This document shows, piece by piece, positions 3,041-16,854 of a stretch of DNA of 33,136 nt; position 1 is the first letter of the stretch, and every line of letters begins with the position of its first letter. This stretch comes from Ktedonobacteria bacterium (GTDB taxonomy: Bacteria > Chloroflexota > Ktedonobacteria > Ktedonobacterales > JACDGC01), in the NCBI GenBank assembly GCA_027459705.1, contig DAIDHM010000029.1, positions 1 to 33,136 on the forward strand. The letters are read 5' to 3'. Both the position numbers and the translations under genes were made by a program. The notes below the pieces were generated by a model. That model was not told the DNA's origin, did not search any database, and saw only the letters and a list, made by a program, of their open reading frames with translations.

Positions 3041-5422
3041 TCATGCTTCCCCGCCCATGGTTTGCTGCGCCCGAGGGCCGCTACTACGGCCGGGGAACCA
3101 CCAGTTCCAGCGGCCCAGCAACCGCATCGTCGCGGGCACCAGCAAGAGCCGGATGATCGTCGCGTCAACGGCGATTGCCACCACCAGGCCTACACCCAGT
3201 TCTTTCGTCAACGTCAACTGGGTGAAGATAAAGGCGCCTGAGACGACGACGATGATCAGTGCCGCACTGGTGATCACCCCTGCCGTCTTCTGGACTCCAT
3301 AGGCCACGGCGTGGCGGTTATCGCCGGTTTTGACAAACTCTTCGCGGATCCGCGAGAGCAAGAAGACCTCATAGTCCATCGAGAGGCCGAAGAGGACGCA
3401 GAACAGAATGATCGGCGTCGTCATCTCCAGGAATCCCTCAGAGGAGAAATGCAGCTGGCTGCTGAGGTGCCCCTGCACAAAGACCCAGACCATCGCGCCA
3501 TAAGCCGCCGCGACAGAGAGGACATTCATCACCACCGCTTTGATAGGCAAGAAGATGGAGCGGAACATGATCAGCAAGACGATATACGTCGAGATGAAAA
3601 TGAAGAGCAACGACCTGGGAAAATTGCCATAGAGGAAATTGGCCAGGTCAATGCTCACTGCTTGCTCACCCGTCACTGAGATATGCAGGGGCGAGCTCCC
3701 CTCCAGCGCGCGCAGTTGCGTGACGACATTACGCGAATTATCGGTATCGATCTGCGCGCTCGGTTCAACTGTGATAAGTGTCGTGTCACCATTGGTCGTC
3801 CCTGAGACGAGCTGCGCCAGTTGCGGGTTCTGGCTATATGCGCCGGTCGTATACAGTGCCTGGTATTGCGCGCAGGTGAGTTGGGGATTGCTGACCAATC
3901 CCTCCGTATTCTGCGTATGTGGAATCGCGGCGATGCGCGCTGTGAGGTCGCAGAGTTGCTGGATATTCGTGGCGTTCATGATCGGCGAGCCGTCGGCAGT
4001 CTGGACGACCACAATTACCGGGCTGGTCTGCGTTGCCGGAAACTGCTGATTCAAAATCGTGTTGCCAAAGCGATTGGGATTGTCTGGTGGCAGGGCGGTG
4101 ATTCCTGGCAGCCCAACGCGCAGGCTCAGGGCTGGCGCCGCCAGCACGGCTAAGAGTGCCAGCACCCCCAGCGCCACTGGCACAGGATGCGCCATCACGA
4201 ACAGCGCCACCCGCTCCCAGAAACCCGGTCGTTCACTGGCGGGAATATGCCCATGTAGGTTGCGGTGGCGCCAGGGTCGCGGGATCCTCGTCGCGATGAC
4301 ACGCTGTCCCAGGACGCCCAACACGGCCGGCACCAGTGTCAGAGCGCCCAGCACCGCGGTCGCCACAATGATCACCCCGCCAATCGCCAGGGAAGTCATG
4401 AAGGCAATGCCGATCAGCGCCAGCGCGCTAAAGCCAATCAAGACCGTCAGTCCCGAGAACAGGATGGCCTCGCCCGATGTGCTCATCGCGATGGCCACTG
4501 CATCGCGCACCTGATGGCCCGCCCGCAGTTCATCGCGGAAGCGGCGCACAATGAAGAGCGAATAGTCGATCGAGATGCCAAGACCGATGATGGTCGCGAT
4601 ATTGACCACATAGATCGACATCTCGGTATGCAGCGAGATGGCGAAGATCAACGCCAGGGTGATGGGGATCGCGACGATTGCCAGCCCCAGCGGGATGGCC
4701 GCCGAGATCAGCGTCCCGAAGACGAAGATGAGCAGAATGGCCGCAATCGGTAGCGTCACCTCTTCTGCCTGCCGCAGATCCGAGGTGGTCGTCACGGTGA
4801 TGTCATTATAGGTCTGTGGATCGCCCGTGACGTAGGTCCGCGCTGGTCCATCTGTAGGGAGAATCTTGTGGAAACTATCCATCAGATTCATCGCCGAGTC
4901 AGAGGACGTATTGAAATCAACGCTGAGATAGGTGCTTTTCCCATCCTGGCCGATCGCTGTGGCGGGGATAGCGTTGGGGAGTGACGTGGCGCACAGATTC
5001 TGGGTGCCCTGTGGCAATGTGACGCGCGTCACGTCCGTAAATTGACAGACTGTCGGAATAAAATTGAGCACTTGCAGTTGATAGGTGACGTCGGTGACGG
5101 GAGTGGACGTGGATTGGAAGACCACCACGACCGAAGGGAGGGCTGGAGTAAACTTCTGGCCCAGGATCGTGTTGGCATGCGTCGATTCACTCCCCGTCAT
5201 GGCGAAACCACCATTACTGAGATGATCGGTGACCTGCGCGCTAAATGGGACACTGACAACGACAGCTATCGCCCAGAAGGCGATAACCAACCAGCGGAAA
5301 CGAAAGATCAACTGGCCATAGCGGATACCCAGGCCAGGGTGTGGGGGTGGCGGAATAGTACCACTCTCGGGATCGCTGGTGCGGATATCCAGGCGATCAG
5401 AGTCTTCCAAGTGCGATTGCAT
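3041..5422 (-). CDS. MMPL/RND-family membrane transporter (YdfJ/MmpL-like)
   Basis: The 793-residue inner-membrane protein has the two-fold repeated MMPL architecture. A membrane segment near the N-terminus (LVIAFWAIAVVVSVPFSAQV) is followed by a large extracytoplasmic domain and a block of membrane helices. A second extracytoplasmic domain and a second helix block follow. Each block carries the diagnostic Asp-Tyr pair: GISIDYSLFIVRRFRDEL near residue 286 and GLSMDYEVFLLSRIREEF near 682. These are thought to relay protons in this family. MMPL proteins export lipids, drugs or other hydrophobic compounds. I start at 5422 because AAGGA stands 9 to 10 bases before that ATG. An in-frame ATG at 5479 lacks a ribosome site. 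The substrate is unknown and no accessory gene is adjacent. Confidence 0.92.
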   Translation of the reverse strand: MQSHLEDSDRLDIRTSDPESGTIPPPPHPGLGIRYGQLIFRFRWLVIAFWAIAVVVSVPFSAQVTDHLSNGGFAMTGSESTHANTILGQKFTPALPSVVVVFQSTSTPVTDVTYQLQVLNFIPTVCQFTDVTRVTLPQGTQNLCATSLPNAIPATAIGQDGKSTYLSVDFNTSSDSAMNLMDSFHKILPTDGPARTYVTGDPQTYNDITVTTTSDLRQAEEVTLPIAAILLIFVFGTLISAAIPLGLAIVAIPITLALIFAISLHTEMSIYVVNIATIIGLGISIDYSLFIVRRFRDELRAGHQVRDAVAIAMSTSGEAILFSGLTVLIGFSALALIGIAFMTSLAIGGVIIVATAVLGALTLVPAVLGVLGQRVIATRIPRPWRHRNLHGHIPASERPGFWERVALFVMAHPVPVALGVLALLAVLAAPALSLRVGLPGITALPPDNPNRFGNTILNQQFPATQTSPVIVVVQTADGSPIMNATNIQQLCDLTARIAAIPHTQNTEGLVSNPQLTCAQYQALYTTGAYSQNPQLAQLVSGTTNGDTTLITVEPSAQIDTDNSRNVVTQLRALEGSSPLHISVTGEQAVSIDLANFLYGNFPRSLLFIFISTYIVLLIMFRSIFLPIKAVVMNVLSVAAAYGAMVWVFVQGHLSSQLHFSSEGFLEMTTPIILFCVLFGLSMDYEVFLLSRIREEFVKTGDNRHAVAYGVQKTAGVITSAALIIVVVSGAFIFTQLTLTKELGVGLVVAIAVDATIIRLLLVPATMRLLGRWNWWFPGRSSGPRAQQTMGGEA

Positions 5423-5572
5423 GGTGAATTTGTCCTTCTTCAAACAGCGTCGAAGTACATGCTCTACATTACCAGGCATATCATACGCTGAAATGTCGAG
5501 AGCACGCTACCAGGGTACCAGCGAAATTCTCCGGCGCATTCTCCGAAAATTCCCGATACTCAGGACTGGCGG

Positions 5573-5578
5573 TACAAT
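5573..5578 (+). promoter_or_regulatory. Candidate -10 box for the radical SAM gene
   Basis: TACAAT lies directly before an in-frame ATG at 5579. If this is the -10, transcription would begin near 5585. That excludes the 5579 ATG and supports the ATG at 5615, which has AGGTGA ten bases upstream. The -35 candidate (TTCCCG at 17 bases) is poor. Confidence 0.4.
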
Positions 5579-5614
5579 ATGAGAGAGAATATCCCCGAAG
5601 GTGAGAGATCCCCC

Positions 5615-6505
5615 ATGCTTGACCATCAGAATCTCGATCATAGTCGGCGCTGGCACGCCCATCGCTATGTGTACGCGGTCGCGTCGCGTCGTGCCCAGGG
5701 TATCTCTATCGGCATAAATTTGAATGTAGACATGATCTGTAATTTTGGCTGTGTCTATTGCGAGGTACTGCGCGGCGTCGTCCCAGCGACGCGCCTGGTC
5801 GACCGCGAAGTGGTGCTGGCGGAACTCCGCTTGATGTTGGAGGAAGCCGCCAATGGGCGGCTCGCGCGCGACGAACGCTTCGCGGGTCTGACCCCCGACG
5901 GCGCGTTGCTACCGGTCCGTGATATCGCCTTCTCGGGTGACGGCGAGCCAACCTCATTCCGCAATTTTGCCGAGGTCGTCGCGGATGTCATCGCGCTACG
6001 CGATGCGCTGGGTATGCACGCGCTCAAGATCGTGGTCATCACAAATGCCTCACTGTTTCACCGACCACGGGTGCAGCAAGCGTTACAGGCAGTCTATGAA
6101 GCTGGCGGTGAAGTCTGGGCGAAGCTGGACGCCGGGACCGCGGAATACTTTCGCGAAGTGGATGCCACTCGCATCCCTTACGCGCGCATCCTGTCGAATA
6201 TCGCTTCGCTGGCACAGACGCAGCCCCTCGTCATCCAATCCTGCTTCATGCGGCTGCATGGGCAGGGTCCTGATCAACGCGAGATCGCTGCCTATCGCGA
6301 TCGGTTGCGGGCGATCGTCGCTGACGGTGGCCAGATCGCGCGCGTGCAGGTCTACACGGTCTCGCGACCGCCTGCTGAACGTTATGTCACCTCATTGACA
6401 TCAGTGGAACTTGAGGCGATTCGGCAGGTGGTGGCGGAGGGTCTGCCAGATATTGTGGTGGAGCGTTATGACGGAGCCTGGGATGGAGATGCGGCGGCCG
6501 ATTGA
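5615..6505 (+). CDS. Radical SAM protein with CX3CX2C cluster motif
   Basis: The 296-residue protein has the radical SAM [4Fe-4S] motif CNFGCVYC with cysteines at residues 42, 46 and 49. It also has a following SGDGEPT segment (about 107-113) that matches the Gly-rich SAM-binding strand, and an ITNASLF strand typical of the partial TIM barrel. These enzymes cleave S-adenosylmethionine to a deoxyadenosyl radical. The substrate here is not evident. The compact size, the SGxGEPT motif and the KLDAG strand are like radical SAM proteins related to wybutosine-type or uncharacterised groups. I see no C-terminal auxiliary cluster motif. The start at 5615 was chosen over 5579 because of its Shine-Dalgarno sequence. 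The gene stands alone between two genes on the minus strand. Confidence 0.85.
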   Translation: MLDHQNLDHSRRWHAHRYVYAVASRRAQGISIGINLNVDMICNFGCVYCEVLRGVVPATRLVDREVVLAELRLMLEEAANGRLARDERFAGLTPDGALLPVRDIAFSGDGEPTSFRNFAEVVADVIALRDALGMHALKIVVITNASLFHRPRVQQALQAVYEAGGEVWAKLDAGTAEYFREVDATRIPYARILSNIASLAQTQPLVIQSCFMRLHGQGPDQREIAAYRDRLRAIVADGGQIARVQVYTVSRPPAERYVTSLTSVELEAIRQVVAEGLPDIVVERYDGAWDGDAAAD

Positions 6506-6528
6506 AAGATCGTGCCGCCGCGCGCTAC

Positions 6529-7302
6529 TTATTCGTCGCTGTCGTTGGGGATGAGTCCCTGGCGTAATCCATAGATCGCCGCCTGGGTGCGATCGCGGAT
6601 GCCCAGCTTCGAGAAGATATTGCTGAGGTAATTCTTCACTGTTTTCTCGGAATAGGCCAGTTTGTTCGCGATCTCGCGATTGCTCAGACCCGCCGCGACA
6701 TAGCGGATGATCTCGATCTCGCGGTCGGTCAGCATATTCAAGCCGCTGGCGGGTTCGACGGACTGCGAGAGTCGGCGATACTCGGTAACGACGGTACCAG
6801 CGACCTCAGGCTCGATCAAAACGCCACCATTGTGCACCGTGCGAATCGCGGCGAGGACTTCCTGTGCCTGCGAATTTTTCAGCAGGTAGCCACGCGCGCC
6901 AGCTCGCATCGCCTGCAAGACCTGATGATTATGGCGATACATCGTCAGGACGATCACGGCCGTCTGTGGCATTTCCTCGGTGATCTGTCTGGTAGCAGCC
7001 AGACCATCAATGATGGGCATGTTGATATCCATCAGGATGACGTCCGGCTTGAATTGGCGGGCTTTGGCGACGGCATCCAGGCCATTGGTCGCCTCAGCCA
7101 CCACGACGATATCGGTCTCCAGCTCCAGCACGCGACCTAATAATTCGCGAAAAAGTCCATGGTCATCCGCCAGCATGAGTTGAATGGTTTTGCCGCGCGG
7201 CGTGCTCTCGGGCCGCGCCACTGGTCGCGCCACATCAGGCTGAGTCGTCGGCCGTGAGGCGGGGGGGGTATGATGGAGCGGCGCTCCAGGTGGTCCTTTC
7301 AT
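6529..7302 (-). CDS. NarL/FixJ-family response regulator (orphan)
   Basis: The 257-residue product has an N-terminal Pro-rich stretch of about 35 residues, then a receiver domain. Acidic residues DD are at about 46-47, the phospho-acceptor Asp is in LMDINMP at about 92, Thr is at about 120 and Lys in YLLKNS at about 142. A LuxR-type helix-turn-helix follows (LTDREIEIIRYVAAGLSNREIA ... KTVKNYLSNIFSKLGI). Such proteins bind DNA as dimers after phosphorylation by a sensor kinase. No kinase gene lies in the window. The start at 7302 has TAGGAG five bases upstream. An in-frame extension to 7434 exists, but it overlaps the upstream terminator zone and encodes an atypical Arg-rich lead. Confidence 0.93.
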   Translation of the reverse strand: MKGPPGAPLHHTPPASRPTTQPDVARPVARPESTPRGKTIQLMLADDHGLFRELLGRVLELETDIVVVAEATNGLDAVAKARQFKPDVILMDINMPIIDGLAATRQITEEMPQTAVIVLTMYRHNHQVLQAMRAGARGYLLKNSQAQEVLAAIRTVHNGGVLIEPEVAGTVVTEYRRLSQSVEPASGLNMLTDREIEIIRYVAAGLSNREIANKLAYSEKTVKNYLSNIFSKLGIRDRTQAAIYGLRQGLIPNDSDE

Positions 7303-7422
7303 AAATGCTCCTACATCTCCTCGATCACATTCCGTGAATACTGAGCTTGGAAGGCATGGTTTGCGGCGCACGCTGAACGTGCGGCGACGTAACCTGTCAT
7401 TCCTCAGTATGCGCCCCATCAC

Positions 7423-7461
7423 AAAAAAAGCCACGCCGACAAAAAAAGGTGCCGACGTGGC
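7423..7461 (-). terminator. Intrinsic terminator after the 7490-8209 gene
   Basis: On the minus strand GCCACGTCGGC (7461-7451) pairs with GTCGGCGTGGC (7440-7430) through an approximately 11-bp stem with two G-T pairs. A seven-T run (7429-7423) follows at once. It begins about 30 bases past the stop of the unrecognised gene and separates it from the response regulator gene. Confidence 0.75.
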
Positions 7462-7489
7462 AGCGCTGAAGAGGATGCTCTGAGCTAGC

Positions 7490-8209
7490 TTAGCAACTCA
7501 AGATAGGACTCGACACAAAGTCAAATTCCAGGTCGCTCGGGCTGTTCAGGACGAGAATGTGATCTGGCACGCGGAGCTTGCCCGCGGGCATCACCGCATC
7601 GAGATTTGTGAAACGATAACGCGGGTTGCCCATCGCCTCATCGAACAGATTGGGATAAGTCAGGAGGAAGATGCCGAACGGCCGCGGATGATCCAGGTCG
7701 CCGATCATCCCCCAGAGGTACGTCGCATACCAGAAGTACTCCAATGTATGGCGCATCGGGGGAGAAGCATACGGGTAAAGCCGCGCGAAACGCTGAATTC
7801 GGCCACGGATTTGGGCCTGGCACAGATATGGTATCATGCCCATGACGATGCTGAGGTAGTCAGGTGGCCAGGCATAGGCATCCTCAAGGCTTGACCGACG
7901 GAGCTGCATCACACATGGTAACCGATGCTGCCGCAGAGAAGCCTGGAATTCCTCGAAATCAGGAAATATATCGAAGGGGTGTAACGACCATTCGATATAT
8001 CTCCTGAGGATGATGTCTATTGAGGTGGGTTCTGGTAGGTTCGATGCCAAGTTCGCTTCTCTGTCTGATAAGAGTTCATCGAAGGTTGACCGTCCCATAG
8101 TGTGCTCTATAGGAGCATTGCGCAGGTGAAGGGCGAGTTGCAGTTGCTCTCGACGCCAGACCGCATTGCCTGCTTCACGGGGAGTGAGGCTCTCATCATT
8201 GTTGGCCAT
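7490..8209 (-). CDS. Protein of unknown function, 239 residues
   Basis: I do not recognise this protein. The start has a strong GGAGG ten bases upstream, and the gene has its own intrinsic terminator, so it is probably a real, monocistronic gene. The sequence is rich in aromatic residues and looks mostly helical. Notable stretches are RRYIEWSLHPFDIFPDFEEF, a compact LEYFWYATYLWGMIGDL segment, and a Pro/Asp-containing tail with LRVPDHILVLNSPSDLEFDF. There is no signal peptide and no clear membrane span. It is divergently oriented to the RSH-STAND operon and shares about 430 bases of upstream DNA with it. It could belong to the same functional unit, but nothing in the sequence proves that. Confidence 0.7.
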   Translation of the reverse strand: MANNDESLTPREAGNAVWRREQLQLALHLRNAPIEHTMGRSTFDELLSDREANLASNLPEPTSIDIILRRYIEWSLHPFDIFPDFEEFQASLRQHRLPCVMQLRRSSLEDAYAWPPDYLSIVMGMIPYLCQAQIRGRIQRFARLYPYASPPMRHTLEYFWYATYLWGMIGDLDHPRPFGIFLLTYPNLFDEAMGNPRYRFTNLDAVMPAGKLRVPDHILVLNSPSDLEFDFVSSPILSC

Positions 8210-8641
8210 ATGTACTTAACCTCCGGGTGCGATAGCGCAGCTTCTAATAACCGATTGTCAACCTTGTTGTCTTTCCTTTCTTGCTGTGTGGTAAGATGCC
8301 ACTAAGATAATAACTTATGCCAGCGCTGGTTGGCAAGGGTACAGTGGCTGTAGCGGAGACATTATGGTGAAAAAAAACAGTCAACTACGCGGTATATAGG
8401 TCGGCGTCCTGCTCGTTTTCAAGTCTTATCTATGCCATCACACCGCTATTGATGCCGGATCATGACCTGGCTTGCTCAGCAATTCGTGCCGTCCTTTCAG
8501 TGCAAGATCAGCAAAATTTCAGGTTTTGGCATGATGGTATCTTGTAAAAATTAAAAATATTACCATGCTTCCTCACCCTTTCCTTCGCCATGATCCATAG
8601 CCAGCATTGTAATAGTGTATAATGCCTGCGAGGCATCCAAA
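8210..8641. other. Divergent intergenic region with AT-rich inverted repeat
   Basis: This 432-base region has no credible gene. It should hold promoters for both flanking genes. A TTGACA box is visible on the minus strand at 8261-8256, without a good -10 at normal spacing. On the plus strand a TATAAT is at 8618-8623. An imperfect inverted repeat (GCATGATGGTAT at 8529-8540 and ATATTACCATGC at 8557-8568) surrounds an A/T-rich centre about 60 bases before the TATAAT. It could be an operator. Confidence 0.4.
8618..8623 (+). promoter_or_regulatory. -10 box (TATAAT) before the RSH-STAND operon
   Basis: A consensus TATAAT ends 18 bases before the preferred ATG at 8642. No clear -35 is present at 16-18 bases. 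A transcript starting near 8630 would have a very short leader, with GAGG at 8630-8633 serving as the ribosome site. This makes the earlier in-frame GTG at 8615 unlikely. Confidence 0.45.
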
Positions 8642-11600
8642 ATGTCGGATAACTCCGTGCCTCTGTCCGGAAAGAGCGGGACGCCAATGGATGAAAGCTT
8701 GCCATATGACCATATCTCGCGAGCCCAGGAATTGCTTGGGATCTGGAAGTATGGTGACACCGAACGCAATCTTATCGCGCAAGCCGTAATTGCCAAGAAT
8801 CACCCCATAAGTGGTGATTTACCATCCGAACCAGTCTTACTGCTGGCCCGGTGTATTGCGCCTGAAAAGCGGCCAGACGCGGAACTGCTGCGTGAGTTAT
8901 TCATCATCGCGTATCAGCAACCAGATATACCTATGCTGGCACTAGCCTGGCATCTCACTGATGCGCAACCGAATACCTTCTCCGCCCAGCGGGGGCGCGC
9001 GATCTACATGCCGCTGACAACCCTCTATGGCCTTTGGAAGATACGCCGTGAACTTGGACAGCGGTATCTCACTCTTTGTGAGCAAGGTCGCGCCAAACAA
9101 CTTGATCTTTCCATAGCGAAGTATTGCCAGAAATTCGCGGACTCGTTCCTCCGTTTTCATGCTGCTTGTCTGGACGTGTGTGGGGATGGGATTCAGGTAG
9201 ATCTGCACCGTCCATCGGCATTTGGAACCGATGCGCGTCACTTTCATCATGGCTTGCCTGTAGCGCTCGAAGATGTATCCAGTATGGTCTTGATCGATAT
9301 CGTGACGGCCACGGATGAGCCATATGCTTGTTATCAGGTCCTGGCAGCTCTGCATCGGCAATGGCGCCACCGCGACGCATCGGTGCAGAGCAATTTTGGT
9401 CTCCGCGATACCGTCTATCACCCGCGTTTTAATGGCTATCGCGCCTTGCGCACCACCCTGATTGCCCCTGAGTTCTCCGGCACGCCGGTCATCGTCAAGA
9501 TCGCCACGCCAGAGATGGCACTGATCAATGAGCGCGGCTATCTGGGAGCGCGCGAGCTGGGTTTTCCAGATGGGATCGGTTGGTGGACTGGTCTCACCTC
9601 CGCTCCTCCGCATAGACACCGGTCAAAATCGTATATTATGGTCTTCAGTCGCGATGGGGAAAAAATTGCCGTAGAAGAAGGCAATACAGCGCTGGATTTC
9701 GCGTTTCATGTCCATTCAGAGGTGGCCGCGCAGGCTCGGGGGATCCGCATAAACGGCCAAAGAGTATCTCTTGGCCATGTCTTGGAGCCGAACGACCTGG
9801 TGAACGTCGATATTGACCGTGGCAATAATTATGTTCAGCCTCATTGGCTTCAAGATGTCAAGAATGCCACCTCACGCCAGAAAATTCGACATGTGCTGCG
9901 TCACCTCCCCACATCACTTTCCGTCGGCCAGCAAAGGATCTGGGAGGAGCTCCTCTCTGAATGTGACAAGGTCGGGGTGACCATCAATCATGATGAGTTC
10001 AATCAAGCGCTTCAGGATCTGGCGCGAGAGTGGTATCGCGAATCCGTCGGTTCGTTGGAACATGACGCTCTGGAAGATCCAGCCGATGCCCAGGCGATCG
10101 CCCAGGCCATTTTGGCGCGTCATCTCGCGCCGCTCATCGTGACGCCAGATCAACAGCCCATGTATGCCCATATCGATCTTGCCAAATGCTGGGCGGAATA
10201 TCGCCATGATGCCTTGCGGGAGCTGAGTCATTATGGCCGTGTGGCTCCAGGAGAACCGATTGTTGGCGATGTCATCGAGTCATACCCACCGGTGGTGGTT
10301 GTGCACCGCACCGGCTGCCGCTGTCGGCCAAAGAGCCCGAGTGGCCAATGGAAGCCGCTGGCCTGGCGCGCGGTGGGGTCGCAAGAATACCTGATCAACA
10401 TCACCGCTATCGATCGTGCCGCCCTCCTGCGGCCCATTCTGGAGACGATCTGGCACATTGGCGCAGCGGCGCAAGACGGATTGCGTCTGCGGCAAGTCAA
10501 TGCGAGCGCAGATGAGAAACACCAGGCCAGTATCGAGTTGCTTGTACACGCCGAAGACGACAGCTTAAAGGATCACTTCGAGCATGAGCTCATCGAGATT
10601 TGTCAACGTGAGCGTGCGACGTACACGATCATGCAGCACTATCCGCATATGGATATCCCGGCTCTCCCAGGCATGACCCCTTATCAGGTCAATCCATATG
10701 CGTTGTCGAGCACTCAGGTGCCCTACCTTTTTTTTGGCCGCGATCAGCAATTTATCCTGCTCTGGCGCGAACTCCTCGCGACCATCGACCCTGCCCATAC
10801 TGCGCGTGGGCATCTCTTCACGCTGCGCGGGCCCGCGCGCATCGGCAAGACCAGCTTCTTCAAACAATTGCAATATCGTGCCAATCGAGACAAACTACCG
10901 CTGATTGTGGCGTATGTCGAATCGAGTGGTGAAATTAAGTCTGATTGTCATGAGATTGCCCGCAGTTTAGAGAAAGCCTGTCGCGAGCGGCTGGGTGATA
11001 GAGTTCCGCCTGCACCAGCATTCAAGTCTTTCACGACTTACCCCATGCACACCCTCGCGCTGTATATCGATGCGCTGGCGCCATTGCTTGATGGCCAGCG
11101 GCTTGTGATCCTGTATGATGAATTCACCCGTATCGCTGAACACAGTGGTGGCAACAACGATCGGTATCTCGTTGCCCTGCAATCACTTGTGGAACAACGC
11201 GCTTTTTTTGCCGTTTTGCTGGGCATTCATCCAGAAATCGAACTTGGCAAAGACGGCCAGCGGCTGGCGCTCACGTATGCAAAACTCATCGACGGCGCCC
11301 ACCAAATACCGTTGAGTTTGTTTTCTCCGCAGGAGACGCGTCAATATGTCACCGAACCCTTGAGACAGCGATTTGCTTTTGATGAAAGTTACGTGTCAGC
11401 ACTGTGGGATGCCACGCACGGTCATCCCTATTTGCTGACCATCCTCTGCCACTACATCATTCAGCACGCGCTGGACCAAGCACAGACCCACCTTACAGCA
11501 ACCGATGTGAATAATCAAGTCCAACACATCATCAATGCCCCCAATACGTATTTTCTACACTTCACCAACTTTTTAAGCCCGCTCCAACAAAATGTGATGA

Positions 11601-11887
11601 GTGTAGCCGCTGCCGTCGCAACAAAGGGATCCAGTCAATTGCAAGCGATACGCAAAGAGCTCACCCTCTTTCAGAGATGTACCAGCTCTGACATTCATCA
11701 AGCGTTGAGGGCGCTCGTGAAACTGGAACTCATCGAATTTCAGAGTGAGGATCCCAACTCAGGCGAGATTTCCATCAAAGTGCCCCTGCTGGCGTGGGTG
11801 CTGGCGAAACACTGGCGTCAGTTGCGGCGTGAGATACTTGCATTGAAGGATCGATCTGTGAAATCACCGGGAGGTATGGCCAAGTGA
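8642..11887 (+). CDS. Degenerate RelA/SpoT homologue fused to a STAND-type NTPase
   Basis: This 1081-residue protein has RSH domain order, then an ATPase. Residues about 80-145 match the end of the RSH HD region and the linker (AELLRELFIIA, LALAWHLTDAQ, then IYMPLTTLYGLWKIRRELGQRYL), but the HD catalytic motif is absent. Residues about 180-300 match the synthetase fold (CYQVLAALHRQW, HPRFNGYRALRTTL), but the family VExQIRT reads VIVKIAT, so the catalytic Glu and Arg are lost. A good TGS domain (331-392) has ALDFAFHVHSEV and LEPNDLVNV. A HRTGCRC zinc-finger-like patch lies at about 555 and an ACT-like domain at 583-655 (LINITAIDRAALLRPIL). The NTPase has FFGRD, Walker A GPARIGKTS (730-738), Walker B LVILYDE (about 826) and HPYLL, then a winged-helix-like tail. 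GAGG at 8630-8633 supports the start. The domain calls are confident; the function is unknown. Confidence 0.85.
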   Translation: MSDNSVPLSGKSGTPMDESLPYDHISRAQELLGIWKYGDTERNLIAQAVIAKNHPISGDLPSEPVLLLARCIAPEKRPDAELLRELFIIAYQQPDIPMLALAWHLTDAQPNTFSAQRGRAIYMPLTTLYGLWKIRRELGQRYLTLCEQGRAKQLDLSIAKYCQKFADSFLRFHAACLDVCGDGIQVDLHRPSAFGTDARHFHHGLPVALEDVSSMVLIDIVTATDEPYACYQVLAALHRQWRHRDASVQSNFGLRDTVYHPRFNGYRALRTTLIAPEFSGTPVIVKIATPEMALINERGYLGARELGFPDGIGWWTGLTSAPPHRHRSKSYIMVFSRDGEKIAVEEGNTALDFAFHVHSEVAAQARGIRINGQRVSLGHVLEPNDLVNVDIDRGNNYVQPHWLQDVKNATSRQKIRHVLRHLPTSLSVGQQRIWEELLSECDKVGVTINHDEFNQALQDLAREWYRESVGSLEHDALEDPADAQAIAQAILARHLAPLIVTPDQQPMYAHIDLAKCWAEYRHDALRELSHYGRVAPGEPIVGDVIESYPPVVVVHRTGCRCRPKSPSGQWKPLAWRAVGSQEYLINITAIDRAALLRPILETIWHIGAAAQDGLRLRQVNASADEKHQASIELLVHAEDDSLKDHFEHELIEICQRERATYTIMQHYPHMDIPALPGMTPYQVNPYALSSTQVPYLFFGRDQQFILLWRELLATIDPAHTARGHLFTLRGPARIGKTSFFKQLQYRANRDKLPLIVAYVESSGEIKSDCHEIARSLEKACRERLGDRVPPAPAFKSFTTYPMHTLALYIDALAPLLDGQRLVILYDEFTRIAEHSGGNNDRYLVALQSLVEQRAFFAVLLGIHPEIELGKDGQRLALTYAKLIDGAHQIPLSLFSPQETRQYVTEPLRQRFAFDESYVSALWDATHGHPYLLTILCHYIIQHALDQAQTHLTATDVNNQVQHIINAPNTYFLHFTNFLSPLQQNVMSVAAAVATKGSSQLQAIRKELTLFQRCTSSDIHQALRALVKLELIEFQSEDPNSGEISIKVPLLAWVLAKHWRQLRREILALKDRSVKSPGGMAK

Positions 11888-13377
11888 GCCAAACAAGAGA
11901 ATCGTTCTTTTTGAATCCATTCCACATTTATTTGAATCAACCGAATCCTCTACGGATCTTTGGGCGTAATCGGCTACTCTTCCAATTGGTCAATCTGCTA
12001 TTTGTAGGCGATGTGCCTGCCTCATGCATCATCAGCGGGCCAAGATATATTGGTAAATCATCCCTCACCCAGACCCTGCAAAATAAAGCCTATATGCGTG
12101 ACCTCATGGCTAACACATTTCCCGTAAGCTACTCTTTAGAGAATATCGAATTCATCAGAGTGTCCATGAAGAATTATACGGGGAGCACGAAATTCGAACA
12201 ATTTCTGTGGTATCTCCGGGCGAATGCTCAGACTTCATCGGGGGTGGATCTGGGAGAAAATACTAGCAAAAAACAAGATGATGATGTAAGGTACAGCATG
12301 AAAGACATGATTACCGCTGCCCATCCAGAGTTGCGACAACGGCGCTTTGTGGTCATTCTTGATGATGCTGGCGATTTTATAAAAAACAATCTAGAAAATG
12401 ATATGGATCGTGGTTTACGCCGAACTTCGCATGATGTCGGGATGTTTTTACTGATCGATGATCCAATTGAGGATATTATGCCACCACGCGATCGGACGCA
12501 ATCCAATACCTCTTTTTTCTTGAATATTATTAACTATATCAATGTAGCGCCGATCACCCTGGCTGATGCTCAGCAGATGATCCATGAATTATTGAACTCA
12601 CCAGGTGAACAGCTTCAGACATTTTTGCCAGCAGCAGAACGCCATTATAGTATTGCTGCTCAGCCGACGGCGACGGAGAATTTCCCGACCCAGGACTGGA
12701 GCGATGCGGAGGTCGCGATGATTCTACGCGTCGCGGGAACCCATCCTTACCTCCTCCTTCAGACCTGCGCGATCTATTATGATATGTATCCTCAGGTGGT
12801 TGAGCGCGATAACGCCGCACTCGATAATCTGGAGCAGCGCCTGATAGCCGAGGCCTTGCGCCAGGACGCCATTCGCCAATTGTTAATGTTCTATTGGGAG
12901 AAGTCCACAGATATCGAACAACAACGCTTGAACGAGAGCGCTAATGGGAAAAATTATTCCATCAAAGATGGTAACCAGCACGACGAGATCCTGCACCTCG
13001 CCAAGCGCACTTTGCTCATAGAATCTGAAGATGGAACTCAGTATAACCTCTTCTCTGAGGTTTTCGCGAGCTTCATCCGCCTGCAAGCCTCGCGGAAACC
13101 AGAAACGCCTTCCACACTGACCGGCATTGAAGAAAAACTGAGTCCGGTTGAATTGCGGCTGTGGCGCTATCTGCAATCACGACCGCGGCAACTCATCGAA
13201 ATCGATGAGCTGATCTCGAGCGTCTGGGATGGAAACCCTGCCAACCGTAACAATCTCGATGGCATTCTCTTTGCTCTGCGCCGCAAATTGGACAGCGCGG
13301 GCTATCGCGGGACCGAGGTGATCCGGAACCTGCGCGGCAAAGGGTACGAATTTCATCCCGAAGCAATGAACGGTTAA
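11884..13377 (+). CDS. STAND-type ATPase with C-terminal OmpR/PhoB-like winged helix
   Basis: The 497-residue protein starts at a GTG that overlaps the stop of the RSH-STAND gene (GTGA), with GGAGG nine bases upstream, so the two are translationally coupled. It begins with NPF..YLNQPNPLRIFGR, a STAND entry motif. Walker A is GPRYIGKSS (52-60), Walker B is RFVVILDDAGDF (about 154-165), and HPYLLLQTC is in the helical part. From about residue 419 a Trans_reg_C-type winged helix follows (LSPVELRLWRYLQ, then IDELISSVWDG, LDGILFALRRKLD and VIRNLRGKGYEF). It is likely an ATP-switched DNA-binding regulator acting with its partner. The first half is visibly richer in A+T than the neighbouring genes, a possible sign of transfer. 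Confidence 0.85.
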   Translation: MSQTRESFFLNPFHIYLNQPNPLRIFGRNRLLFQLVNLLFVGDVPASCIISGPRYIGKSSLTQTLQNKAYMRDLMANTFPVSYSLENIEFIRVSMKNYTGSTKFEQFLWYLRANAQTSSGVDLGENTSKKQDDDVRYSMKDMITAAHPELRQRRFVVILDDAGDFIKNNLENDMDRGLRRTSHDVGMFLLIDDPIEDIMPPRDRTQSNTSFFLNIINYINVAPITLADAQQMIHELLNSPGEQLQTFLPAAERHYSIAAQPTATENFPTQDWSDAEVAMILRVAGTHPYLLLQTCAIYYDMYPQVVERDNAALDNLEQRLIAEALRQDAIRQLLMFYWEKSTDIEQQRLNESANGKNYSIKDGNQHDEILHLAKRTLLIESEDGTQYNLFSEVFASFIRLQASRKPETPSTLTGIEEKLSPVELRLWRYLQSRPRQLIEIDELISSVWDGNPANRNNLDGILFALRRKLDSAGYRGTEVIRNLRGKGYEFHPEAMNG

Positions 13378-13457
13378 CCTCGTTCGTGTATACTCTCTGC
13401 TCAGGTTATCCGGTAAAGACCTTAAGGAGATCGCCTGAGGCGGTCTTGCCTGGCACA

Positions 13458-13466
13458 TGCTATAAT
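13458..13466 (+). promoter_or_regulatory. Extended -10 promoter element for the polyprenyl synthase gene
   Basis: TGC directly followed by TATAAT forms a strong extended -10 about 130 bases before the ATG. No clear -35 is present. Upstream, GATCGCC-TGA-GGCGGTC (13429-13445) forms a 7-bp stem that may close transcription of the preceding operon. Confidence 0.5.
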
Positions 13467-13594
13467 CTATCGATGGGGAAGCCCTCATTTTGGAGCACCC
13501 TGAGAGACGCGGAGTGTCTCCCATCCCATGCAAGATGGCGAGCCAACGGTTTTGGCTTGTCGCGCGTGCTTGAAGACACGAGAGAGGCATCCTT

Positions 13595-14581
13595 ATGAGT
13601 AGTACGGCCACATTGAGCCGCCTCTTTTCCCACATCGAGGCCGATCTGGAGAGCGTTGACCAACTTTTCAGAGAGCGGGCGCGATCCGAGGTCACGTCGT
13701 TGAATGACGCCTCGTTGCACGTTATGGGTTCGCAAGGAAAGCGTCTGCGTACCGCACTAACGTTATTGGTTGGTCGACTTTTCACCTACCGGGCGGAAAG
13801 ACTCATTCCTCTCAGCGCTGGCTTCGAGATGTTGCACCTCGCCTCCCTTGTCCATGATGATATCATCGATCACTCCGCTACGCGTCGCGGGTTGCCCACC
13901 ATCAATACGCGCTTTGGCAGCGAGGTAGCCATCCTGCTCGGCGATTATTATTTCGCCAAGACGGCGGGATTGATTGCCGATGTCAATGATAACCGTATCG
14001 ACCGCCTCTTCTCGGATACTGTCGCGACGATGGTCGAGGGCACCATCCTGGAAATGCTCGACGCTGGTCACCTGGACCTTTCATACTCCACCTACCTGCG
14101 CCGCATCCGAGGTAAGACCGCCTGCTTGATTGCGGCTTGTTGCCGCGGTGGTGCTACGGTCTGCGAAGCGACTGATGCCCAGATCGCCCAGATGACGGAG
14201 TTTGGCCAGAATCTTGGCATTGCTTTCCAGATCATCGATGACGTGCTGGACTACAGTGGCACCGAAGCGGTCATTGGTAAGCCAGCTGGCAATGACTTGC
14301 GTCAGGGAATGGTGACCCTGCCGCTGATCTACGCTCTGGACTCCGATTCCGACGGTCACCTCTCCGCTGTCCGCGCGATCATCGAAGAACCACGCAAACA
14401 TGATGATATTGTCCCGACCATCGTCGCCTGGGTCAATAGCGGTCCTGGTCTCACCTCCGCCCTGGACGAAGCCTTGCGCTACGCCCAATTGGCGCGCGAT
14501 CAATTATTGACGTTGCCTGCCTCCCCCGATCGGGAGATTCTTGAAGAGATCATTGATTTTGTGCTCCAGCGCGAGCGATGA
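13595..14581 (+). CDS. All-trans polyprenyl diphosphate synthase (menaquinone side chain)
   Basis: The 328-residue protein is a trans-isoprenyl diphosphate synthase. It has GKRLR at 48-52, the first Asp-rich motif HDDIID at 87-92, the second DDVLD at 215-219, and GKP at 228-230. It condenses isopentenyl diphosphate units on an allylic primer to make the long prenyl chain. The next gene, ten bases downstream, is the menaquinone methyltransferase, so the chain most likely feeds menaquinone (heptaprenyl or octaprenyl type, like HepT or IspB). Product length cannot be read from sequence by eye. The start has GAGAGAGG upstream. Family assignment is secure and the pathway assignment is inferred from the neighbour. 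Confidence 0.95.
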   Translation: MSSTATLSRLFSHIEADLESVDQLFRERARSEVTSLNDASLHVMGSQGKRLRTALTLLVGRLFTYRAERLIPLSAGFEMLHLASLVHDDIIDHSATRRGLPTINTRFGSEVAILLGDYYFAKTAGLIADVNDNRIDRLFSDTVATMVEGTILEMLDAGHLDLSYSTYLRRIRGKTACLIAACCRGGATVCEATDAQIAQMTEFGQNLGIAFQIIDDVLDYSGTEAVIGKPAGNDLRQGMVTLPLIYALDSDSDGHLSAVRAIIEEPRKHDDIVPTIVAWVNSGPGLTSALDEALRYAQLARDQLLTLPASPDREILEEIIDFVLQRER

Positions 14582-14591
14582 GGTGGACGTG

Positions 14592-15347
14592 ATGACAACT
14601 TCTCCCGCACCGGAACTCCGGCGCCGTTTTGACGAAGAAGGGGGCAAAGCTCCCTATGTCCGGAACATGTTTGGCCGAATCGCGCGCGTCTATGATGGCA
14701 TGAATCGCTTGATGACCGGCGGCTTAGATCGCCGCTGGCGCGCCTTCGCCGTGCGCCAACTCGCGCTGGGCGCGGATGCGCACGGGTTAGATGTCGGCAC
14801 AGGCACGGCTGACCTCGCGATCGCTGCCATTCGCGCTGCCGGTCCGCGTACGCGTATGATCGGGGTCGATTTCACGCCAGAGATGCTGGATTATGGCCGC
14901 AAGAAAGTGTCTAAGCTCGGGCTGGCGGATCGCGTGGAATTACGGGTCGGCGACGGTGAGCATCTGGAATTCGCGGATAACACCTTCGATGGCGTCTGCT
15001 CGGCTTTCGTGGTGCGCAATCTGGCCGATCTTCCGGCCGGCCTGCGTGAACAATTTCGCGTATTGAAACCAGGCGGACGGATGGTCTGTCTTGAGATCAC
15101 GCATCCCCCCGGACCGATCTTCAGCGGAATCTTCCATCTTTACTTCGACCAACTGGTACCACTCATGGGTAAAATTGTAGGTAAGTCTTTTGATTCCTAT
15201 AATTATTTGCACCAATCCCTGGCGATGTTTCCACCGGCGCCCAGGCTGAAACAGCTAATGCGGGAGGCTGGTTTCACCGACGTGCGCTACTATTACCGCA
15301 CCTTTGGAGTTGTCGCGGTACATGTGGGCCAGAAGCCAGTGTCGTGA
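14592..15347 (+). CDS. menG: Demethylmenaquinone methyltransferase (UbiE/MenG)
   Basis: The 251-residue class I SAM methyltransferase has the UbiE signature parts: YVRNMFGRIARVYDGMNRLMTGGLDRRWR, the SAM-binding LDVGTGTADLA (about 67-77), AFVVRNLADLP, FRVLKPGGRMVCLEIT, and the KSFDSYNYLHQSLAMFP segment. It methylates demethylmenaquinone to menaquinone, the last step of quinone synthesis, probably at the membrane surface. The ATG at 14592 has AGGTGG five bases upstream and follows the polyprenyl synthase stop by ten bases. An earlier in-frame start inside the upstream gene is unlikely. The pair forms a compact menaquinone operon. Confidence 0.95.
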   Translation: MTTSPAPELRRRFDEEGGKAPYVRNMFGRIARVYDGMNRLMTGGLDRRWRAFAVRQLALGADAHGLDVGTGTADLAIAAIRAAGPRTRMIGVDFTPEMLDYGRKKVSKLGLADRVELRVGDGEHLEFADNTFDGVCSAFVVRNLADLPAGLREQFRVLKPGGRMVCLEITHPPGPIFSGIFHLYFDQLVPLMGKIVGKSFDSYNYLHQSLAMFPPAPRLKQLMREAGFTDVRYYYRTFGVVAVHVGQKPVS

Positions 15348-15486: not shown

Positions 15487-16854
15487 TCAATCTTCCACGA
15501 AAGATTGCACCCAGATTTCGCTGCCCAACAGCCCCAACGAGGAGCGGACCCGTCGCACGCGCGCCAGGCCTATGTCCGCGATGGTCGCTAGGGTTGTCCC
15601 ATCCTCCAGCGTGACAGGCCTGGGAAGCGGATCTGGCGATTGAATGCAGATGGCGTGACGCGCGCCGCTATCAGTAGCATTTTGTTGCATCACTGCTTGC
15701 ATGGTGGTGCAGGTACCAGCAAAAAAATCCAGAATGGTATCACCGGGATCGGTGGCGAAGCGGATGAGTCGGCGGATGAGATCGGGTGACTTCGGGGTCT
15801 CGAAGAGCGGGACGCCGCCAAAGATCTGCCGGAGCGCCGCGGAGCCATTTGGCGCCAGGTCGGTCCAGAGATCGCTGGCGAGTTTGCCTGGCGAGGGTGG
15901 GACGTAGTGCTCGGGTTTGCCGGTCCGCGAAAGACGCAATAAGTCGCAGCGGACGCCGTTCGTGGTAGGTTGCGCCGCGACCCAACTATCGATGGCGGGC
16001 TGAGGCGGCCACTCTGCGCCGAGCTCCGTCTGACAGCGGGCATAATTCTCGCAGGCGCGCTGGCTACGTTCCGCCCCCCACCGCCACTGACCGCGTTCGG
16101 GCACAATGCCGAAAAGCGGGTAACGCATGGTGGGCCGGTCAGTGCCGCGCCAATGATTGTTCCAGGTGCCGTGAGGTGGTGCGGCTTCCGCACTCGGCGG
16201 GATGATAAGCTTGGGGAAACGCGTCGTAGGTTCGCGCGCGAAGAAGACCACATATTCATGACCATGTTGCAGAGCATCGACTGTTGCAAACTGCGCCTGC
16301 ACATTCTTCACGCCACGCCGAATGACAATGATATTCTTGAAGCAGGCCTCGCCAAAAATCTCATGTAACAGGCAGAGGAGATGATGGATTTCTTCATGGC
16401 CAATGCTGATGAAGATCGCCCCATCTGCTCGTAACAGTTGATGAGCGAGGATTAAGCGCGGATACATCATGCTGAGCCAGGTGCTGTGTGCTTGCGCCCG
16501 CGTCACGCGCCGATCTGCGCCAGCCACACGACGCGGAGTCGTGAAGCGATCGGCAAATGCAAAGCGTTGGCCGGTATTGTAAGGTGGATCGATATAAATC
16601 ATGCGTACGCGCGCGCGCAACTCGGGCATGAGGAGGCGCAGCGCTGCAAGATTATCGCCCACGATCAGTCGATGCCCGGTCCCTTCTTCCATGGGACGAG
16701 GTGGCGACAACACATCGTGTAGCACGCCGCGCGGTGGCTCCGCGAGGATCTGTCGCGCGGCTACCTTGCCTGGCCAATATAATCCCAACTCCAGAACCAG
16801 ATCGTGAGTCGCGACCTCCGAAATGAAGGCACCGTCTTGCACCTGGTCCGCCAC
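15487..16854 (-). CDS. Orphan beta-class adenine DNA methyltransferase
   Basis: The 455-residue protein has DPPYNT at residues 89-94, the catalytic motif IV of N6-adenine methyltransferases. A SAM-binding motif I lies near the C-terminus (DFFAGTCTT, 376-384). This motif order is that of the beta class, as in type III Mod subunits. Motif I normally reads FxGSGTT; here a Cys (382) takes the place of the conserved Gly. An LSMMYPRLILAHQLLRADGAIFISI segment follows motif IV, as in Mod-like enzymes. No restriction gene is adjacent. The GTG start has AAGGGG five bases upstream and comes 26 bases after gatB on the same strand, so it may be co-transcribed with gatB. The target site is unknown. Confidence 0.88.
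   Translation of the reverse strand: MADQVQDGAFISEVATHDLVLELGLYWPGKVAARQILAEPPRGVLHDVLSPPRPMEEGTGHRLIVGDNLAALRLLMPELRARVRMIYIDPPYNTGQRFAFADRFTTPRRVAGADRRVTRAQAHSTWLSMMYPRLILAHQLLRADGAIFISIGHEEIHHLLCLLHEIFGEACFKNIIVIRRGVKNVQAQFATVDALQHGHEYVVFFAREPTTRFPKLIIPPSAEAAPPHGTWNNHWRGTDRPTMRYPLFGIVPERGQWRWGAERSQRACENYARCQTELGAEWPPQPAIDSWVAAQPTTNGVRCDLLRLSRTGKPEHYVPPSPGKLASDLWTDLAPNGSAALRQIFGGVPLFETPKSPDLIRRLIRFATDPGDTILDFFAGTCTTMQAVMQQNATDSGARHAICIQSPDPLPRPVTLEDGTTLATIADIGLARVRRVRSSLGLLGSEIWVQSFVED

Follow-up and report, generated by a model that had tools for sequence, protein, structure and literature searches.

Fusion of a RelA/SpoT homolog lacking its catalytic residues with a STAND NTPase: a putative sensor of a two-protein transcription switch in Chloroflexota

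A 33,136-nucleotide stretch of Ktedonobacteria DNA (the window), part of contig 65 in a draft genome of 4.6 Mb, encodes a protein of 1081 amino acid residues (positions 8642 to 11887, forward strand) that combines a RelA/SpoT homolog (RSH) with a STAND-type NTPase. We put at slightly better than even (a probability of about 0.55) the reading that the RSH part, predicted to be catalytically dead, is the sensor of a two-protein, starvation-responsive STAND transcription switch that makes no alarmone itself. Comparison of the available sequences bears out the apparent inactivity of the RSH part, the intact STAND NTPase, the presumably obligate DNA-binding STAND partner, and the signature of selection on the fusion. 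The partner, a STAND protein with a winged-helix DNA-binding domain encoded immediately downstream, and the ECF-like sigma factor encoded in relatives were both absent from the original prediction, which was made from the window alone; together, they point to transcription control.

The reading frame of the fusion is uninterrupted from an ATG at 8642 to the stop at 11887. A GAGG motif is located 8 nt upstream of this ATG, and an alternative in-frame GTG at 8615 would extend the protein by 9 residues. The NCBIfam model of full-length SpoT/RelA (TIGR00691) matches the fusion in two stretches, the better one at residues 330 to 640, with an E value of 1.4e-34 and a score of 119.5 bits, which falls below the cut-off of 499 bits. 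A phmmer search of PDB sequences aligned residues 331 to 599 with RelA (8fr8) and residues 113 to 422 with Escherichia coli RelA (5iqr). A Foldseek search with the AlphaFold2 model of the fusion, a model of low overall confidence (pLDDT 66, pTM 0.42), retrieved RelA (5kpv; E value 3e-18) and SpoT (7qpr) over ~700 columns, so the RSH similarity extends well outside the generic TGS domain. A similarity confined to TGS would have refuted the original prediction, and the searches show otherwise.

The fusion displays the fold of the long RSHs and their HD-synthetase-TGS-helical-zinc finger-ACT domain order, with all parts on the forward strand. The HD hydrolase remnant (8819 to 9181, approximately residues 60 to 180), delineated by alignment with canonical RSHs, shows a median identity of 20% to them and has lost its catalytic residues. 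It is followed by a (p)ppGpp synthetase remnant (9254 to 9541, residues 205 to 300), defined by the site table and a sub-threshold match to the RelA_SpoT domain (Pfam ID PF04607; E value 4.6e-4 at residues 225 to 299), and by the TGS domain (9632 to 9817, residues 331 to 392), recognized from the alignment with RelA and a match to PF02824 (E value 2.6e-12 at residues 333 to 388). The next segments are a helical region (9839 to 10141, residues 400 to 500), where the helices of the model align with the RSH helical domain; a zinc-finger-like region (10214 to 10366, residues 525 to 575), placed by the alignment and the site table; and an ACT/RRM-like domain (10379 to 10636, residues 580 to 665), which is reached by the TIGR00691 match, shows a beta-alpha-beta pattern in the model, and yields significant ACT_4 matches in many relatives.

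The C-terminal part begins with a STAND/ATPase_2-type NTPase (10709 to 11536, residues 690 to 965), matched by AAA_22 (E value 8e-6) and also by AAA_16 in the window fusion and, significantly, by nSTAND1 and ATPase_2 in its relatives. Foldseek finds for this part the archaeal Walker-type ATPase 2qen (TM score of 0.66 by target) and also 2fna. Both nucleotide-binding motifs are intact: Walker A is GPARIGKT (residues 730 to 737, positions 10829 to 10852), which fits GxxxxGK[ST], and Walker B is VILYDE (residues 822 to 827, positions 11105 to 11122), which fits hhhhDE. The secondary structure of the model and the family alignment place a winged-helix-like domain, assigned with medium confidence, at the C terminus (11549 to 11821, residues 970 to 1060). 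These data confirm, at the level of profile and fold comparison, that the fusion is a homolog of full-length RelA/SpoT joined to a STAND/ATPase_2 NTPase, in agreement with the domain order and the intact Walker motifs that had been read from the sequence. The description of HD and zinc-finger-like remnants can be refined: both regions are degenerate in the window copy, where the alignment to HD is poor over the first ~80 residues and the zinc finger lacks its first Cys pair.

The active sites were compared in an alignment of the fusions with canonical RSHs that represent several phyla as well as the window's own order, using the residue numbering of S. equisimilis Rel; one canonical reference (L085), a wrong-frame open reading frame, was excluded from the site tables. 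In the window fusion, the expected synthetase motif VExQIRTxxM reads VIVKIATPEM, with Ile in place of Glu323, and Arg241, Lys243, and Asp264 are replaced by His, Pro, and Ser, respectively; the HD sites (His53, His77, Asp78, Glu81, Asp82, and Asp144) are unrecognizable. Glu323 and Lys243 are gone in 19 of 19 scorable fusion copies, one of which (L200) has an Asp at the Glu323 position, and none of the 19 keeps the HD Glu81-Asp82 pair. Judged by these residues, both RSH active sites are lost in the window fusion, as had been proposed. HD metal ligands persist in some copies from a second class of Chloroflexota (L195 to L197), and another fusion (L032) keeps the HD metal tetrad; the HD center of the window copy has thus apparently decayed further. 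These ligands are what speaks for an RSH that remains enzymatically active, with an unusual active site under STAND regulation. We regard such an enzyme as highly improbable, given the universal loss of Glu323, Lys243, and the Glu81-Asp82 pair in the scored copies and the presence in the same genome of separate RSHs with an intact HD or an intact synthetase domain.

These canonical RSHs are encoded in tandem on another contig of the window's genome (G000:C91, locus L042, positions 6111 to 8144 and 8227 to 9951). Here and in relatives (also L048 and L050), one member of the pair has an intact HD domain and an altered synthetase and the other a dead HD domain and an intact synthetase, which represents a RelA/SpoT-like split inside Chloroflexota. 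Because the genome encodes these two separate RSHs, alarmone metabolism need not depend on the fusion.

The gene that follows the fusion (11884 to 13377, forward strand), whose start overlaps the fusion stop by 4 nt, was identified by Pfam matches and its conserved position as encoding a 497-aa STAND NTPase with a C-terminal OmpR-type winged helix-turn-helix (wHTH) domain (Trans_reg_C; PF00486; E value 1.6e-9; residues 418 to 490, positions 13135 to 13353). The AAA_22 and AAA_16 matches of this partner are weak, and its model (pLDDT 60, pTM 0.39) gave low-confidence Foldseek matches to the NTPases of ORC, CED-4, Apaf-1, and Avs3. Its Walker A motif, GPRYIGKS in the window, is conserved in all 13 aligned partners, whereas in Walker B the Asp is kept and the next acidic residue usually is not, which makes its ATPase activity uncertain. 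A ~500-aa STAND protein with an OmpR-type domain is encoded directly after the fusion in every copy with enough downstream sequence (18/18): the window's order accounts for 12 of these (12/12) and the second class for six, two of the latter cut by contig ends. When all 47 genomes of the order were searched, matches to the full-length partner (E < 1e-110) were found beside the fusions (12/12) and nowhere else, the remaining matches covering little beyond the OmpR-type domain. Another overlapping pair of STAND genes is present at L047 (G007:C2, positions 5104 to 8942), where the first protein has a different N-terminal region and no RSH; paired STAND operons may therefore be a wider theme.

Genomes were searched with the family alignment in three sets: all 47 from the order of the window (its class holds the same 47), a sample of 400 Chloroflexota, and 249 genomes of the second class. 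The order has 13 copies in 12 of its 47 genomes, one of them cut by a contig end; the Chloroflexota sample added one more, and the second class has 7 in its 249 genomes, counting the one from the sample. This makes 20 copies, the window's included, in two classes of Chloroflexota, and the search for further proteins with both parts that had been suggested thus produced 19, with the STAND-wHTH partner and, at most Ktedonobacterales-like loci, a divergent ECF-like sigma gene as neighbors. In these searches, fusions scored E < 1e-122 with matches spanning both halves, and canonical RSHs stopped at ~1e-118. A scan of genome contigs with the fusion as a single sequence found no relative, and a scan with the alignment picked up the generic TGS motif and gave ordinary RSHs only, so we make no claim on phyla beyond Chloroflexota.

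A branch with an SH-aLRT support of 98% sets 13 fusions (the order contributes 12 and the other class one) apart from the canonical RSHs of the order in a maximum-likelihood tree. The branches are long and weaken the tree, so a single origin of these 13 fusions is proposed with caution; since long-branch attraction is a risk, the partner gene common to the fusions serves as additional evidence. The dN/dS values of three close copies lie between 0.02 and 0.14 in every domain, including the dead HD and synthetase regions, which indicates purifying selection on all domains of the fusion in close relatives. This bears on the possibility that the fusion is a decaying relic, either a pseudogene or an NTPase that alone still matters and carries a non-functional RSH leftover. 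The long tree branches and an in-frame stop in one copy (genome G610) fit such decay; the low dN/dS values, the frames of >1000 aa that are open in 18 copies, and the 98% support for one old origin leave it very little room. The copy with the stop (L195, G610:C52, positions 5215 to 8472) is divided into 590 and 493 aa; this could reflect a genuine pseudogene, a protein made in two pieces, or an error in the sequence. Another locus (L033, G031:C67, positions 4233 to 15226) carries two diverged fusion-partner pairs on one contig, convergently oriented, and a separate divergent sigma gene accompanies each pair.

The best indication of what the fusion might sense comes from the TGS domain, the best conserved one among distant fusions: their median identity is 40% in TGS, 24% in the STAND domain, 19% in ACT, and 17% in HD, compared with 50% in TGS, 39% in HD, and 19% in ACT among canonical RSHs. 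His358 of the window TGS domain (positions 9713 to 9715) aligns with His432 of E. coli RelA, which contacts the CCA end of tRNA (PMC7058999). Of the 19 copies, 11 retain this His, among them the window's and all seven of the second class; the eight others, all Ktedonobacterales-like, have Asp, Asn, or Gly in its place. The zinc-finger-like region of the window copy is reduced to His555 and Cys559, since the first Cys pair, also lost in its nearest relative, reads Tyr-Gly, and the full Cys-Cys-His-Cys set is kept in all seven second-class copies. The conservation of TGS and the His in 11 of 19 copies favor a starved ribosome or tRNA as the input, and with the complete zinc set of the second class they argue for an ancestral sensor of this kind. 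The eight copies without the His and the missing Cys pair of the window copy count against it. Ribosome or starvation sensing by the present-day fusion is plausible.

Alternatively, the same two-protein STAND switch may have a small-molecule input: the ACT domain could bind an amino acid, or the dead catalytic pockets could bind (p)ppGpp or GTP. The ACT_4 matches of many relatives, the equivalent of Tyr308, which stacks on the base in the synthetase and is retained in 17 of 19 fusion copies, and the purifying selection on the dead HD and synthetase regions would all be in line with that, as would the eight copies without the TGS His needed in tRNA recognition. However, ACT is poorly conserved among the fusions, at the same 19% as in canonical RSHs, TGS is conserved best, and no part of the protein has changed more than the catalytic pockets. 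We therefore rate a small-molecule input well below even odds.

The gene next to the window fusion could be taken as a further hint of an amino acid ligand. It is transcribed divergently (7490 to 8209, reverse strand) and encodes a 239-aa remote homolog of phenylalanine hydroxylase (2v28, phenylalanine 4-hydroxylase, E value 1.7e-5; NCBIfam PRK11913, E value 3.3e-5) whose His/His/Glu iron ligands are apparently replaced, making it a second presumably dead amino-acid enzyme beside the fusion. Its membership in the module is not established. Homology of this gene to the sigma genes of the relatives found no support when compared (best E value 0.08). The intergenic region between the two divergent genes (8210 to 8641) is, by position alone, a candidate control region; no repeats that could serve as binding sites were found in it, and none were shared. 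An N6_N4_Mtase-family DNA methylase (E value 6.5e-30) is encoded nearby (15487 to 16854, reverse strand).

No sigma gene adjoins the fusion in the window, where the divergent neighbor is the gene just described. Eight Ktedonobacterales-like copies, among them the two of genome G031 and the truncated copy of G037, have an adjacent, divergently oriented gene for a ~220-aa protein that contains sigma region 2, and two further sigma genes at contig edges are consistent with the same position. Region 2 is matched in this protein and region 4 is not, and its TIGR02937 match (E value 1.3e-6) is below the cut-off. Its paralogs at seven other loci (L172, L174, L176, L181, L182, L184, and L185) are divergent to genes for ~1200-aa proteins, five of which, scanned in Pfam or read, combine an XRE-type HTH, an NB-ARC STAND module, and ~14 WD40 repeats. 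This sigma family is thus repeatedly found next to STAND regulators with differing sensors, which suggests that its pairing with STAND receptors is a general one.

At six loci (L036 to L040 and L162), the sigma gene is adjoined by a gene for a MocR-like GntR-aminotransferase, identified by Pfam in L036, by reading in L162, and by similar gene size in the others. A convergent gene for a protein of ~400 to 450 aa, weakly APH-like in L036, is located 3' of the partner gene at L036 to L040, but not at the truncated L162. The fusion locus of the relatives is accordingly a syntenic, stable chromosomal setting. Bacterial immune systems often employ STAND NTPases, and the original prediction had offered immunity as one role of the fusion. 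An NLR/Avs-like anti-phage or abortive sensor that monitors translation would fit this frequency and the presence of Avs3, CED-4, and Apaf-1 among the Foldseek matches of the partner. Neither the fusion nor the partner, however, contains a nuclease, protease, transmembrane, or NADase effector or a repeat array, and both end in winged helices; PADLOC gave no match, no copy was found on the phages, plasmids, and viral contigs searched, and the conserved chromosomal neighborhood, with its sigma, MocR-like, and APH-like genes, is a further point against this role. We consider it very unlikely.

Under the transcription switch reading, a full-length RSH would have lost both activities and taken over sensing for a STAND NTPase. 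Points that weaken this reading are the eight copies without the TGS His, the reduced zinc finger of the window copy and its nearest relative, the uncertain ATPase activity of the partner, the lack of a sigma gene beside the window fusion, the low confidence of the models, and the long tree branches. Binding of a ligand at the pseudo-RSH may then release the NTPase, ATP binding may drive the assembly of the fusion and partner STAND proteins, and the wHTH of the partner may act on a promoter and alter transcription, a change to which the divergent ECF-like sigma factor would add in the Ktedonobacterales-like relatives. More tentatively, and with odds clearly lower than for the switch itself, the system can be imagined as an alarmone-free branch of the stringent response, in which starved ribosomes are recognized by an inactive Rel and the signal passes directly to a promoter by way of an ATP-driven complex of two STAND proteins, in some lineages with an ECF-like sigma factor. 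RSH proteins are usually treated as enzymes with (p)ppGpp as the output; a family of full-length RSHs that lacks both activities, is nevertheless maintained by selection, and is tied to a DNA-binding STAND partner would show that the part of the stringent response that senses starvation can find a second use as an independent receptor, and it would give STAND regulators a new sensor type, the pseudo-RSH.

The original prediction knew of no described system with this architecture. We likewise found no description of an RSH-STAND fusion in the literature searched, which mostly leaves out subscription journals, and no earlier account there of what appears to be a two-gene STAND switch whose sensor is a pseudo-RSH. 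The fusion shares with the long RSH enzymes (Rel, RelA, and SpoT; TIGR00691) the domain order, the predicted fold, and, in the window copy, the TGS His; it differs from them in the loss of both catalytic centers and in the addition of the STAND NTPase, the winged helix, and the DNA-binding partner. Retention of a dead domain within an RSH is also known from the RelA[hS]-type pseudo-hydrolases (Atkinson et al., 2011; PMC3153485), but the synthetase of RelA is active, whereas both domains of the fusion are predicted to be inactive; a STAND fusion is absent from the passages of that survey consulted here. The NTP-dependent conflict systems of multicellular bacteria described by Kaur et al. (2020) include STAND NTPases and list TGS in MoxR-vWA ternary systems; in contrast to the pair described here, they are built on vWA/MoxR or GTPase cores with effector domains, and no RelA/SpoT-STAND fusion was found in the text of that paper (PMC7159879). 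The archaeal ATPase_2/MNS-type ATPases (2qen and 2fna) have an NTPase fold with a C-terminal winged helix like that of the fusion, but come without an RSH part or an operon with a DNA-binding partner. STAND transcription regulators, such as MalT and the AfsR/SARP-like proteins, combine a STAND NTPase with a winged-helix or HTH DNA-binding domain and a sensor made of TPR repeats. As in these regulators, a DNA-binding domain is linked to a STAND module, here in the partner protein, where PF00486 is found family-wide. Pfam scans detected no TPR or other superstructure repeats in the fusion or its relatives, and, unlike MalT and AfsR, the system is split over two proteins and has two STAND modules, with a pseudo-RSH as the likely sensor in place of the TPR repeats.
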